A DNA stretch of 41,932 bases from Candidatus Gastranaerophilales bacterium (GTDB lineage Bacteria > Cyanobacteriota > Vampirovibrionia > Gastranaerophilales > Gastranaerophilaceae). The notes under the pieces were generated by a model, which worked only from the letters and a program-made list of their open reading frames with translations, was not told the DNA's origin and made no database searches. Both the position numbers and the translations under genes were made by a program. Where the stretch lies: positions 1-41,932 of the forward strand of contig CALUTI010000011.1 in NCBI GenBank assembly GCA_944323695.1, given 5' to 3'. This document shows, one piece after another, positions 1,821-11,303 of the stretch (positions within the stretch are counted from its first letter, which is position 1; each line of letters begins with the position of its first letter).

Positions 1821-3575
1821 TCAACCGCAAACAATCATTTCACAATTTTTACAATCAAACTTTAACGGATATTTTTTACCCTTTTCGTCAATCAAGAATA
1901 ATTTTACGGGTGATTTACACATATTAAAAGCGAATTTGAGACAATGTTTTGTGCGCATTAATTCAACGTTTTGGGGTCTTGTGCTTTCGTAAGACATTTC
2001 GCAGGATTTGCAGCCGCAATTTTCATAAAAACTTTTTGCTTCGTGGTTGTGAATATTTGCCCTGTAGTCTAAATCTTTTACGGGGAATTCCGCATAATGC
2101 ATAGGCTGTTGAACATCACGCTCATAGTTATTAAGTCGTTCTTCCATTAATTTATCAAGAATTTCTCGGCGTAGATTATTTATTTCCGAAACCGGCAAGA
2201 ACGGTAATTCGTCATTTATCTTTATTTCCGTTATATAAAAATCACTTTCACCGCATTTTTTCAATTGGGATATGAAATTTTCCTGCATCTTGTCAGGATT
2301 TTTCGGTTTTTCATTGGCAAGAACTTCCATTGCAACTTCATTTCCGTCCTCATCAATTGCATGCAGGACACCTTCATTATATAAAAATTTTGCTGAAATT
2401 CTGCGTTTTATTTTGGAATTTGAGAGCTGTTTTTCAAATTTGGCGTCAAAATTTCTGTATATTGTCATCCCTTTTTTAAAGTTATCAATTTTGTTCGGAT
2501 AAACTTTAATTCCCTCAACCTTATTCACAAGGCAGCCTTTAAGCTGACCTTCAATAAAGTAGCACAGACCGTCTTGAGGGTTTATTTGAGCATTTATTTC
2601 GAAATAATTTTTTCCAATAGCAGTAATTTTACCAAGTTTTTCACCCATAGATTTTGGCGTTGCAAAGTTAAAACATTCCTTTCTGCCATCCAGAAAATAA
2701 TCCGTAAAGCCTCTGTTAAAACTTTTACTCACATCCGGTTCAAAATCAAGAAATACTGTGCCGGAAGAGGTTCTTTCAGAAATTTTATCAAGTTCATTTC
2801 GATAGTATGCAACAACATTTTTCACATAATTGGTATCTTTTAATCTGCCTTCTATTTTAAATGACTTAACACCGGCATTAACTAATGCTTTCAAATGTTT
2901 TGAAGCATTAAAATCTTTCAGACTCAAAAGATACATATCTTTTGCAATAATATTACCTTTTTCATCCGCAAGGGTATATTTTTTCCGGCAGCTTTGGGCA
3001 CATTCACCTCTATTTGCCGAACGTCCGCCGTTTGCACAACTCATATAACACTGTCCGCTATATGATACGCATAAAGCTCCATGGATAAATGTTTCTATTT
3101 CCGTTTTTGTATTATTACAAATTTCTTTTATCTGCTCAATCGAAAGCTCTCTGGCCAGAATTACCCTTGAAACACCGACTTCATCAAAAAATTTCACTTT
3201 TTGCAATGTTCTGTTATCGCACTGCGTGCTCATATGAACAGGTATCGGGGGTAATTCGCCTCTTATTGCCAACTCTAAAAGCCCCATATCCTGAACAATA
3301 ACGGCATCAATTCCCGTATCATAAAGATCTTGAATTAATTTTTTTGCCAGAATTAATTCATTATCATCCAAAATTGTATTTATGGTCACATGAACTTTTA
3401 CATTAAACTTATGTGCATATTGGACAACTTCTCTAATATCTTCTATTAAATTTCCGGCGTTTTGTCTTGCCCCGAAATTCTTTGCCCCGATATATAAAGC
3501 ATCACAGCCGCTGTTTATTGCGGCAATTGCTGTTTCTTTGTCTTTTGCAGGTGCTAAAAGTTCAACTTTTTCCAT
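1821..3575 (-). CDS. Peptidase U32 family protein, RlhA-like RNA hydroxylase, 584 aa
   Basis: The U32 signature is clear: ETFIHGALCVSYSGQCYMS at about 161-179, with Cys169, Cys176, Cys192 and Cys196 in the spacing used by RlhA/TrhP-type proteins for an iron-sulfur cluster. N-terminal ELLAPAKD and the TIM-barrel pattern fit. Family knowledge: U32 proteins such as RlhA (23S rRNA C2501) and TrhP (tRNA U34) carry out prephenate-dependent RNA hydroxylation. The length and extra C-terminal region favour the RlhA-like subgroup, but substrate cannot be told from sequence. The last 75 residues add eight cysteines including CGCxxC and CxxC, which may form a second metal site. There is no Shine-Dalgarno; a TTGTCA-17-TAAAAT promoter ends 6 nt before the ATG, so the mRNA is probably leaderless. 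Confidence 0.85.
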   Translation of the reverse strand: MEKVELLAPAKDKETAIAAINSGCDALYIGAKNFGARQNAGNLIEDIREVVQYAHKFNVKVHVTINTILDDNELILAKKLIQDLYDTGIDAVIVQDMGLLELAIRGELPPIPVHMSTQCDNRTLQKVKFFDEVGVSRVILARELSIEQIKEICNNTKTEIETFIHGALCVSYSGQCYMSCANGGRSANRGECAQSCRKKYTLADEKGNIIAKDMYLLSLKDFNASKHLKALVNAGVKSFKIEGRLKDTNYVKNVVAYYRNELDKISERTSSGTVFLDFEPDVSKSFNRGFTDYFLDGRKECFNFATPKSMGEKLGKITAIGKNYFEINAQINPQDGLCYFIEGQLKGCLVNKVEGIKVYPNKIDNFKKGMTIYRNFDAKFEKQLSNSKIKRRISAKFLYNEGVLHAIDEDGNEVAMEVLANEKPKNPDKMQENFISQLKKCGESDFYITEIKINDELPFLPVSEINNLRREILDKLMEERLNNYERDVQQPMHYAEFPVKDLDYRANIHNHEAKSFYENCGCKSCEMSYESTRPQNVELMRTKHCLKFAFNMCKSPVKLFLIDEKGKKYPLKFDCKNCEMIVCG

Positions 3576-3581
3576 AAACTT

Positions 3582-3610
3582 ATTTTATTACAACGAATAT
3601 GACTTGACAA
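3582..3610 (-). promoter_or_regulatory. Promoter of the U32 gene, leaderless geometry
   Basis: Minus strand: TTGTCA at 3610-3605, a 17-nt spacer, TAAAAT at 3587-3582, then six bases and the ATG at 3575. The expected transcription start coincides with the start codon. Confidence 0.7.
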
Positions 3611-3692
3611 TCATGCTTTTTTATGATATAAAAAGTGTGGGGTAAATGTATATTTATAAGTCTTGTCTTTCGACGAGACTTTCTTTTTCGGG

Positions 3693-3899
3693 TCAGGTTA
3701 TAAGATTGTTTTCATACGCCAAATACAGCAAATGGCGGCGGTTTTGGGCTCTTAAACCAGTCATTACTCTATGTAATTCCGATAAAAATTTATTCAAATC
3801 ACGATAATAATACTTATTTGCAATTTCTCTATAGGTCATGCCGCTTGATAAATATTTATAAATTCTCTCTCCTAAATAATTATATAATTTGTTCTCCAT
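3693..3899 (-). CDS. Small helix-turn-helix-like protein, 68 aa
   Basis: Starts MENKLYNYLGERIYKYLSSG. The segment SGMTYREIANKYYYRDLNKF followed by a basic helix (HRVMTGLRAQNRRHLLYLAY) looks like a short helix-turn-helix of the GerE/LuxR or sigma-region-4 type, so DNA binding is plausible but unproven. I chose the ATG at 3899 because AAAGGA lies 7 nt upstream; a longer reading from a TTG at 3920 would run through that ribosome site. It has no partner domain. It is transcribed away from metG, with a gap of about 150 bp that holds the metG terminator hairpin. Confidence 0.6.
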   Translation of the reverse strand: MENKLYNYLGERIYKYLSSGMTYREIANKYYYRDLNKFLSELHRVMTGLRAQNRRHLLYLAYENNLIT

Positions 3900-8000: not shown

Positions 8001-9064
8001 TTAATTTAAACGTTAACATTAAAGAAAATAACAAAACTTATCCAATTATTATAGATAACAACGATATAAAACTTTTAAAGACAGAAATTTTAAAACACTT
8101 AAAAGGAAAAAAATTTGTTGTTGTATTTTCACAAAAGGTCGATAAATTATACGGCAGTCTGCTGGGTTTTGAAAAAAATGACAAATTTATCTTAAAAGAC
8201 GGTGAAAATCAAAAAAATCTAAAAAATTACGAAAAAATTCTTGCATTCTGTCTCAATAAAAAATTAACAAGAGACGATGCTATTATTGCAATAGGCGGAG
8301 GAGTTGCAGGAGATATTGCAGGTTTTGCTGCATCTTCTTATATGAGAGGAATTGATTTTATACAGGTGCCGACAACTCTTTTGGCATGTGTCGACAGCTC
8401 TGTCGGAGGGAAAACTGCTGTTAATACTTCTTTCGGAAAAAATCTTATCGGCTCTTTTTACCAGCCAAAAGCCGTTATTATTAACACAAACTTTCTGAAA
8501 ACTCTTGATGAAAGAAATTTCAAAACCGGTCTTGGAGAAGTTGTAAAATATGCTTTTATTGAAAAAAGCTGCAAGTGCAAAGAAGAGCTTAATCTTATTA
8601 ACTTTTTGGAAGAAAATTATAAAAAAATACTGGATTATGATTCACAAATTCTCACTGAATTAATAAAAATTTGTCTTTTATTAAAAATTTCCGTTGTAGA
8701 AAACGATGAAAAAGAATCCGGGTTGAGAAGAATTTTAAATTTTGGTCATACATACGGTCATGCAATAGAAAAGCTTACAAAATACAAAAAATATACCCAC
8801 GGGGAATGCGTTGTAGAGGGAATTAAATTTGCTTTTAATTTAGCTTTGAACAATAATCTTATTGATAAAAATTATTTGTATTTTATGCAGGATGTAATTA
8901 AAAAATTTAGCTTTAAAGAAATCCCGCCGTTTGAATTAAAAAAAGTTATACCGGTTATGAAAACAGACAAAAAATCTTCAACGGATTTTATAAGATTTAT
9001 TTTGCCTGTTGATTATTCAACAGTGAAAGAATTTGAGTTTAACGAGCTGCTTACCATTTCTTAA
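7997..9064 (+). CDS. aroB: 3-Dehydroquinate synthase, 355 aa
   Basis: Converts DAHP to 3-dehydroquinate using NAD+ and a divalent metal. The nucleotide-binding segment AIGGGVAGDIAGFAASSYMR (about 98-117) is followed by PTTLLACVDSSVGGKTAVN (about 125-143). Predicted metal ligands are Glu181 (GEVVKYA), His251 (FGHTYGHAIE) and His268 (YTHGE). The 4-bp overlap with aroK marks a two-gene operon. The 3' end overlaps the convergent small membrane-protein gene by 14 bp. aroC lies about 4 kb away on the other strand, so the pathway genes here are clustered loosely rather than in one operon. Confidence 0.96.
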   Translation: MINLNVNIKENNKTYPIIIDNNDIKLLKTEILKHLKGKKFVVVFSQKVDKLYGSLLGFEKNDKFILKDGENQKNLKNYEKILAFCLNKKLTRDDAIIAIGGGVAGDIAGFAASSYMRGIDFIQVPTTLLACVDSSVGGKTAVNTSFGKNLIGSFYQPKAVIINTNFLKTLDERNFKTGLGEVVKYAFIEKSCKCKEELNLINFLEENYKKILDYDSQILTELIKICLLLKISVVENDEKESGLRRILNFGHTYGHAIEKLTKYKKYTHGECVVEGIKFAFNLALNNNLIDKNYLYFMQDVIKKFSFKEIPPFELKKVIPVMKTDKKSSTDFIRFILPVDYSTVKEFEFNELLTIS

Positions 9065-9394: not shown

Positions 9395-9760
9395 TTACTT
9401 AACCAGTCCTTCTGTCTCATTATACATAACCATATAGAAATCAGGACTTGTCATATTCGGATTTTTCTTCAAAAATTTTTTAACATCAAATTTTTCGAGA
9501 TATTTATCTAGTTTATTAATAATTTTCGGATTATCTTCGTGTTCTGTTTTAAGATTATTTATATAAGATTTTGTCATCATTAAGACTTCATCTTCCGTCA
9601 AAAGAGGAAGCCCGCCTATTTTAACTTCGTCCTGTTCTTCCTGTTCGAGGTATTTTTTTTCTTCCTGTTTTTGTTCTCTCGGCTGTTGATGTTTATTGCT
9701 GTCAGACGAGGTTGATGATTCTATTTTTTTATTAAAGGGATTGTTTACGGAATTAAACAT
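9395..9760 (-). CDS. Unrecognised acidic protein, 121 aa
   Basis: A strong ribosome site (AAGGAGGT) stands 5 nt before the ATG at 9760. Residues 1-45 are polar and highly charged (QPREQKQEEKKYLEQEEQDE, about 26-45), probably disordered. Residues 50-121 look helical (LTEDEVLMMTKSYINNLKTE ... SPDFYMVMYNETEGLVK). No signal peptide or known domain. It is the first gene leftward of the proposed origin and heads the two-gene unit with the DUF486 protein. Confidence 0.65.
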   Translation of the reverse strand: MFNSVNNPFNKKIESSTSSDSNKHQQPREQKQEEKKYLEQEEQDEVKIGGLPLLTEDEVLMMTKSYINNLKTEHEDNPKIINKLDKYLEKFDVKKFLKKNPNMTSPDFYMVMYNETEGLVK

Positions 9761-9834
9761 AAATACCTCCTTTTTAGATTTATAACGGTTATTTTAATGA
9801 TTTTCTTAAAAAAATCATCCGATTGATGTATTGC

Positions 9835-10080
9835 TGTAGAAAAACATGTTAATTCTGGTAGAAAACTCATGAGTTTTCTACATTGTTTTTTATTATTAAT
9901 AGTTTTCTACTATTTAATATTTTTATTTACTATTTTTTCTACAATACTTTCTACGATTATTATCACGGAATAATCATATTTTCAGGTATTTTTCTACAAA
10001 TAATTGGTGTTTATTATTACTGTTATATTTAAATATTATTATTTTAATTAATATAATATTTAATATAAAAATTTTGAACA
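9835..10080. other. Candidate replication origin: DnaA-box-like cluster plus AT-rich unwinding region
   Basis: This 420-bp gap (9761-10181) holds no gene. Exact copies of TTTTCTACA occur at 9874-9882, 9935-9943 and 9990-9998 (plus) and 9835-9843 (minus). Near matches are at 9857-9865 (minus, last base differs), 9903-9911 (plus, last base differs) and 9947-9955 (plus, two differences). The 9-mer differs at one base from the cyanobacterial DnaA box TTTTCCACA. About 10021-10075 is almost pure A/T, as expected of a DNA unwinding element. dnaN follows directly; several cyanobacteria have their origin beside dnaN with dnaA elsewhere. Genes left of it are mostly leftward and dnaN is rightward. Function is inferred. 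Confidence 0.65.
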
Positions 10081-10181
10081 AAAAGGCGAACTATAGTTTT
10101 TTAAACTTCTTTACATTAGTTTGTTTTGCTATATTTTTATTATAGAATTTATATAAAGAGATTTATATGAAGGAGTAATAA

Positions 10182-11303
10182 ATGAAGTTTGTTGTAAAAA
10201 AAGAGGATTTGTTTGACGGGATAAAGATAGTTGAGCGTGCTACAAGCATGAAAGCTCTGCAGCCTGTATTTTTAAATATATTAATAGAAACAGTAGATAA
10301 AGGTACCATCAGACTTGTTGCAACAGATTTGGATTTAACTGTAACAGCATTAGTTGATGCTCAGGTTGAAGAAGCCGGAAAAATTACTCTACCTTCTAAA
10401 ACTCTTAATGAAATAGTCTCTAAATTGGGCAATAAATTAATAACTTTTGAAATGCCAGAAGGTGAAACAACAGTAAATATAACATGCCAAAATTCAAAAT
10501 TTGATATTATAGGTATTTCAGCAAACGAATTTCCTCCTGAAGTTTATCAGGTTGAATTGAATGACGAAGAAAGCTTTGAAATTGAATTAAAACCTTTTTC
10601 AAAAGCAGTCAGACAAGCAGGTTTTGCTGCAGCAAGCTATGAAACCAGCAATCTTTTGTCTGGTATAGTTTGTGATATATCAGGTCAGGTTTTGGAAATA
10701 GCATCAACTGACGGAAACAGACTTGCACGCGTAAGAGAACACATTGATAACAAAGATAATAAGACAAAACAACTTATTATTCCTGCCAAAACGCTTAATG
10801 AATTCATAAAAATGAGTGCATATATTGATGAAGATTCAGTAAGAATTTACACTGAAAAAACAAAATTAATAATTAAATCCGAAAGAACCATGACAATTTC
10901 AAGACTTTTAGACGGTCAATTCCCGAAATACAATCAGTTAATTCCGTCAGAAAGTCCGAAAGAAGCAATTGTTTCTGTTTCACAATTAATATCAGCATTG
11001 GAACGTGTATCAATTATGGTTAATGAAAAAACAAGCATAGTAAAAATGAACTTTGCTGATAATGAGTTAACCCTTAATGCTGATACACCGGATTCAGGTA
11101 AATCAGAAGAAAAAATTGATATTCAATACACATCAGAACCTTTGCTTATCGCATTCAATTATAAATATGTTCTTGAAGCATTAAAAAATATAGATGCGGA
11201 AGAAGTAAAAATAGGATTAAACACAGGATTATCTGCAACAGTCTTAAGACCAAACAGCGAAGAAGATTTCGTATGTTTGATTATGCCTGTCCAGATAAGA
11301 TAA
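10182..11303 (+). CDS. dnaN: DNA polymerase III beta subunit (sliding clamp), 373 aa
   Basis: Ring-shaped processivity clamp that tethers DNA polymerase III and other replication proteins to DNA. It starts MKFVVKKEDLFDGIKIVERA and shows the three clamp domains of about 120 residues each, with recognisable segments IRLVATDLDLTVTA, EFPPEVYQVEL, LLSGIVCDISGQVLEIASTD and DGQFPKYNQLIP. It ends with the typical LIMPVQIR. The ribosome site AAGGAG lies 8 nt upstream. A possible promoter is TTGTTT (10120-10125) with TAGAAT (10142-10147). It abuts the box-rich AT segment proposed as oriC. A terminator follows. Confidence 0.97.
   Translation: MKFVVKKEDLFDGIKIVERATSMKALQPVFLNILIETVDKGTIRLVATDLDLTVTALVDAQVEEAGKITLPSKTLNEIVSKLGNKLITFEMPEGETTVNITCQNSKFDIIGISANEFPPEVYQVELNDEESFEIELKPFSKAVRQAGFAAASYETSNLLSGIVCDISGQVLEIASTDGNRLARVREHIDNKDNKTKQLIIPAKTLNEFIKMSAYIDEDSVRIYTEKTKLIIKSERTMTISRLLDGQFPKYNQLIPSESPKEAIVSVSQLISALERVSIMVNEKTSIVKMNFADNELTLNADTPDSGKSEEKIDIQYTSEPLLIAFNYKYVLEALKNIDAEEVKIGLNTGLSATVLRPNSEEDFVCLIMPVQIR

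Follow-up and report, generated by a model that had tools for sequence, protein, structure and literature searches.

A predicted chromosomal origin beside dnaN in Gastranaerophilales, with a lineage-wide T6 DnaA box matched to a changed residue in the DnaA recognition helix

In photosynthetic cyanobacteria (Synechococcus elongatus, Anabaena and Cyanothece; PMC4674748, PMC7198777), the chromosomal origin consists of an array of DnaA boxes beside dnaN with dnaA located separately, and the locus that we describe here is arranged likewise. Their box is TTTTCCACA and their DnaA has D at residue 433; in contrast, this locus and its T6 relatives have the box TTTTCTACA, which is identical in its first five and last three letters and has T instead of C at position 6, and a DnaA with K or R at residue 433. 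The canonical box, TTWTNCACA, receives base-specific contacts everywhere except at position 5 (PMC7561715, PMC5295017), and D433 is listed among the residues that make base-specific contacts (PMC7561715, PMC5043019). In the basal unwinding system of firmicutes (B. subtilis and C. difficile oriC2; PMC7561715), we find the same order of boxes, a short GC-containing spacer, a DnaA-trio, an AT-rich DNA unwinding element (DUE) and dnaN as at this locus, and the trio of one relative (G003), CACCTACTATTACTACTATT, closely resembles the C. difficile trio. Unlike in firmicutes, dnaA of Gastranaerophilales is not beside the predicted origin, the box consensus is without C6 and the trio is TTA-rich. Lineage-specific boxes with altered recognition residues in DnaA domain IV are also known from Thermotoga maritima (12-mer AAACCTACCACC; PMC4285127, PMC10316083) and from Epsilonproteobacteria, in which T5 is fixed (PMC5043019); however, in the present case the 9-mer frame is kept, and the swap affects the invariant C6 alone and goes with residue 433. 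The open-access papers that we searched gave no origin description for the TTTTCTACA box or for Gastranaerophilales/Melainabacteria.

Seven predicted DnaA boxes upstream of dnaN

The window (the whole stretch of DNA that was analysed, 41,932 nucleotides) is contig C11 of a 1.73-Mb genome that is 97.8% complete in 19 contigs; its nearest relatives with a name carry the label Candidatus Gastranaerophilales (Vampirovibrionia). A 421-bp intergenic region of 19% GC (9761-10181), predicted to be the oriC region, lies between a small divergent ORF that matches nothing in Pfam (9395-9760, - strand) and dnaN, the gene for the DNA polymerase III sliding clamp (10182-11303, + strand; TIGR00663, E 1e-84; Pfam). 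The dnaA gene is on contig C4, while dnaN and the box cluster are on C11. A sequence-only reading had reported four exact and three near copies of a 9-mer within 165 bp, adjoining dnaN and a pure-AT stretch, and we located all of these: seven predicted boxes span 164 bp, an AT run follows at 10023-10075, and dnaN starts at 10182, 184 bp from the last box, a location beside dnaN as in cyanobacterial oriC. The exact TTTTCTACA copies are box 1 (9835-9843, - strand), box 3 (9874-9882, + strand), box 5 (9935-9943, + strand) and box 7 (9990-9998, + strand), which is proximal to the DUE. The near copies are box 2 (TTTTCTACC, 9857-9865, - strand), which is head-to-head with box 3, box 4 (TTTTCTACT, 9903-9911, + strand) and the degenerate box 6 (CTTTCTACG, two mismatches, 9947-9955, + strand), which lies 43 bp before box 7. 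With box 3 as offset 0, boxes 1, 2, 4, 5, 6 and 7 are at -39, -17, +29, +61, +73 and +116.

Boxes 2 and 3 with their 8-nt spacer form a perfect 24-bp palindrome, GTAGAAAACTCATGAGTTTTCTAC (9858-9881), that folds as a hairpin when single-stranded. It also scored as a terminator on the + strand, a role that we rejected because the flanking genes diverge and because it is built of two conserved boxes. The CATGAG core of the palindrome may have an extra role.

The claim that such a cluster is not expected by chance holds. About 0.004 exact copies are expected in 164 bp (Poisson P ~1e-11 for the four observed), and when the intergenic region was shuffled 5000 times with its dinucleotides kept, four exact copies were never reached (maximum 1); the seven TTCTAC cores compare with a maximum of 4 in the same number of shuffles. 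Lone copies of the 9-mer had been noted near 1236 and 4412, and these are present (at 1238 and 4412); however, that list was incomplete, as a third is found at 8695 in the window. Genome-wide there are 47 exact copies of TTTTCTACA, and the four at 9835-9998 are the sole cluster: we found no rival cluster of TTTTCTACA in the 97.8%-complete assembly and no box cluster near dnaA, where a stretch of 19.9 kb has no TTTTCTACA and never more than one TTCTAC in 300 bp. The absence of a stronger box cluster near dnaA, on which the sequence-only reading had staked its proposal, is borne out within about 10 kb of that gene. Separately, TTTTCTACA is half as frequent genome-wide as the reversed control word (47 and 93 copies), hinting that stray boxes are avoided.

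Downstream of box 7, we found a DnaA-trio, TTATTATTACTGTTA (10011-10025, + strand; other strand 3'-AAT AAT AAT GAC AAT-5'), in which one triplet (CTG) is imperfect. A run of this kind after the last box fits the definition 3'-[G/A]A[T/A]-5' (PMC7561715), and a scan of the 42-kb window showed it to be the only run of at least five such triplets. The trio is followed by a predicted DNA unwinding element of 53 bp of pure A+T (10023-10075). Further downstream there is a possible dnaN promoter (10110-10137, + strand), a weak consensus match that is apart from the boxes and lies in a region where the number of such matches is not above that in shuffles.

Position 6 of the box and residue 433 of DnaA

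The changed box base is C6, an invariant position of TTWTNCACA, rather than the free N5. T6 replaces C6 in each of the seven boxes and, across about 60 relatives, in nearly every box, and region 9761-10181 contains no TTTTCCACA; in 13 of 13 photosynthetic cyanobacterial genomes we found TTTTCCACA clusters, as published (PMC4674748). It had been pointed out that the box differs from the cyanobacterial one by a single transition, and the C6-to-T difference stands; however, it is lineage-wide and not peculiar to one genome. The members of three genera (g18, g24 and g27) have the boxes TTTTGCACA or TTATGCACA (C6) or, in two of these members, TTATGAACA and TTATAAACA (A6). In two further genera, g17 (L407-L409) and g22 (L398, L402 and L406), the boxes upstream of dnaN are TTTTGCACA, TTTTGAACA or TTTTAAACA.

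When domain IV was aligned to E. coli DnaA (1J1V), the genome's own DnaA was found to have K before H434 (motif NKKHTT) where E. coli has D433, and the Asp of the canonical motif R/K-D-H-T-T is absent. A change at a box-contacting residue of domain IV had been suspected, and this D433-to-K replacement confirms it. Among the genomes in which both box and DnaA could be read, all 39 with T6 boxes have K or R at residue 433, and the 11 members of g18, g24 and g27 (C6 or A6 boxes) all have N. The residue is D in the 25 members of the phylum outside the class whose domain IV was read, of which the 13 photosynthetic ones had their boxes tested. The second-best separating column of domain IV is E. coli R401 in the basic loop, which partly tracks box class. 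The turn before the recognition helix is usually one residue shorter than in photosynthetic cyanobacteria. Variation at contact residues other than 433 leaves the box unaffected: several T6 genomes have P for T435 (the motif in G256 is NKKHPT), and of the several genera with HPT for HTT (L149, L150, L156, L157 and L159-L162) nearly all keep TTTTCTACA clusters.

A DnaN tree unites the genera with N and the genera g17 and g22, whose boxes are also C6/A6, in a single clade (SH-aLRT 100%). Because this clade is nested within K/R lineages, the association of residue and base rests on about two concordant evolutionary events, not on 75 independent ones. We did not find the DnaA of g17 and g22 in the 120-140 kb around dnaN, and we predict that it has N or D before H434. 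A plausible chemistry for such a pairing is that the amino group of C (or A) donates a bond to Asp or Asn, and that O4 of T receives one from Lys or Arg. We lean towards the view that residue 433 works almost alone as the switch, D or N reading C (or A) and K or R reading T, with a class-wide change to K/T6 after the split from photosynthetic cyanobacteria and a reversal to N/C6 in a nested Gastranaerophilales clade. This putative switch is the best-supported but unproven part of the account.

A different account of the same boxes, that 9761-10181 is an origin in which T6 is neutral drift, with DnaA still reading TTWTNCACA and TTTTCTACA serving as a weak box, we consider unlikely. Such drift would suit an AT-rich genome and an intergenic region of 19% GC, where C to T is the expected mutational direction; however, position 6 alone changes while C5, A7, C8 and A9 are kept. 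In f3, the members with TTNTCTACA boxes have no more than 10-11 bp of pure AT in the upstream region, which shows that the box also occurs outside AT-extreme stretches. Also against drift, a nested clade of the same family pairs TTTTGCACA with N in place of K, and no other column of domain IV separates the box classes as well as the residue before H434 (0.97).

Two side observations concern DnaA in other members. The recognition helix is strongly altered in f6 (L189 and L190; GRGNSA) and f7 (L182-L188; NRTHSS), in which a box cluster beside dnaN was not found. One g20 bin (L351, G505:C9) has a second DnaA with a canonical GRDHST motif that may be contamination.

Conservation and GC skew in relatives

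We found 79 distinct dnaN loci in GTDB genomes, and about 60 of them have 3-8 copies of TTTTCTACA directly upstream of dnaN. The facing pair formed by boxes 2 and 3 is exactly 8 nt apart in 56 of 59 usable loci (the window's own included), most commonly with the spacer CTCATGAG and often also with TTCATGAG, and the offset of box 1 is kept in 53 of 56 relatives. Across the relatives the boxes occupy the fixed offsets -39, -17, 0, +29/30, +61/62, +73/74 and +116/117, which the window's boxes match exactly, and the sequence between boxes is much less conserved than the boxes themselves. In 51 aligned loci, the 15-nt triplet run past the last box (consensus TTATTATTACTATTA) is at a fixed offset and almost invariant, and a tract of near 100% A+T follows it. 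The same elements are also found in other families of class Vampirovibrionia, as is a box pair 42-43 bp apart like boxes 6 and 7; outgroup families of the class have T6 boxes upstream of dnaN, some 42 bp apart, and then trios such as CTACTATTACTACTA.

Where dnaN has no adjoining boxes, the cluster is still present elsewhere, about 1.4-5, 9, 18, 36 or 43 kb away, and in some genomes it is absent from the dnaN contig and located on another. These displaced clusters keep the boxes and, in several cases, the trio too. Among 20 genomes without boxes directly upstream of dnaN, G252 is the sole case in which we did not find a cluster. In families f6, f7, f9 and f10, a clear box cluster was sought next to dnaN or dnaA and was not found. 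On the dnaN contig of G003 (L287, ~3300-3700), the eight-mer ATTAAGCT occurs about 20 times within 300 bp. Some Vampirovibrionia genomes have a second, divergent dnaN-like gene (G227:C67:2084-2419, G026:C5:30334-30684 and G395:C5:14176-14529).

GC skew had been put forward as a check on the origin, and its outcome was favourable in part. Of four relatives with long contigs, three have their minimum of cumulative GC skew at the cluster or close to it: in G242 it is 70 bp from the cluster centre (over 400 kb), in G245 it is 2.4 kb from the cluster, and in G240, taking 110 kb to each side, it is 5.3 kb away, with an inversion-like block beyond. In the long contig of G244, however, we found no clear minimum, and on the window's own short 42-kb contig the skew is -0.052 to the left and +0.040 to the right of the cluster with the minimum at 18.5 kb. 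At three sites with C6/A6 boxes (G169, G194 and G226), the skew changes sign in two of three, with minima 17 kb away and, in G226, 55 kb away.

We consider it very improbable that the boxes form not an origin but a regulatory array for the dnaN promoter, with DnaA or another factor as the transcription regulator. In the window, as in about 60 relatives, dnaN does follow the cluster directly; however, the cluster is kept where dnaN is 1.4-43 kb away, it is accompanied by a DnaA-trio and an AT tract, the GC skew switches at the cluster in relatives, and the promoter-like match is downstream of the boxes and apart from them. It is hardly credible that the cluster is a DnaA-titration or reactivation site of the datA or DARS type with the origin elsewhere, for although such sites also hold several DnaA boxes, this is the sole cluster in a genome whose 97.8%-complete assembly has no rival cluster of TTTTCTACA, and the trio, DUE and skew switch are features of origins.

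The predicted origin and its meaning

Our preferred reading, to which we give a probability of roughly 0.93, is that 9761-10181 is the chromosomal oriC, with seven boxes in fixed geometry, a trio and an AT element, and with a T6 box because the recognition helix has K for D433; binding, unwinding, firing and the K-to-T6 contact are what we infer. For a computational result, the origin call itself comes close to certainty, and the sole cluster, its conserved geometry, the trio and the skew in relatives bear out the earlier proposal of a candidate origin beside dnaN. The plan would be that of an ordinary DnaA-dependent oriC, with a box code that is non-canonical, lineage-wide and matched by the change in the recognition helix. 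DnaA would bind the seven TTTTCTACA-type boxes, an inverted pair and an array directed towards dnaN. If the basal unwinding system of firmicutes is taken as the model, a filament would then grow from box 7 (9990) along one strand through the trio (10011-10025) and open the pure-AT element up to 10075, where the helicase would be loaded.

Both C6 of the box and D433 of DnaA pass as nearly universal, and origin finders use TTWTNCACA; throughout an entire class of common gut bacteria, searches of this kind would overlook origins or put them in the wrong place. The joint change in DnaA and its box provides a simple rule, open to testing, for site recognition by the initiator, and it suggests that an essential protein of this kind is able to change its code. 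The cluster also supplies an origin map for Gastranaerophilales. If the switch at residue 433 is real, an essential initiator and its sites in the genome would have changed their code together on two occasions in nature.
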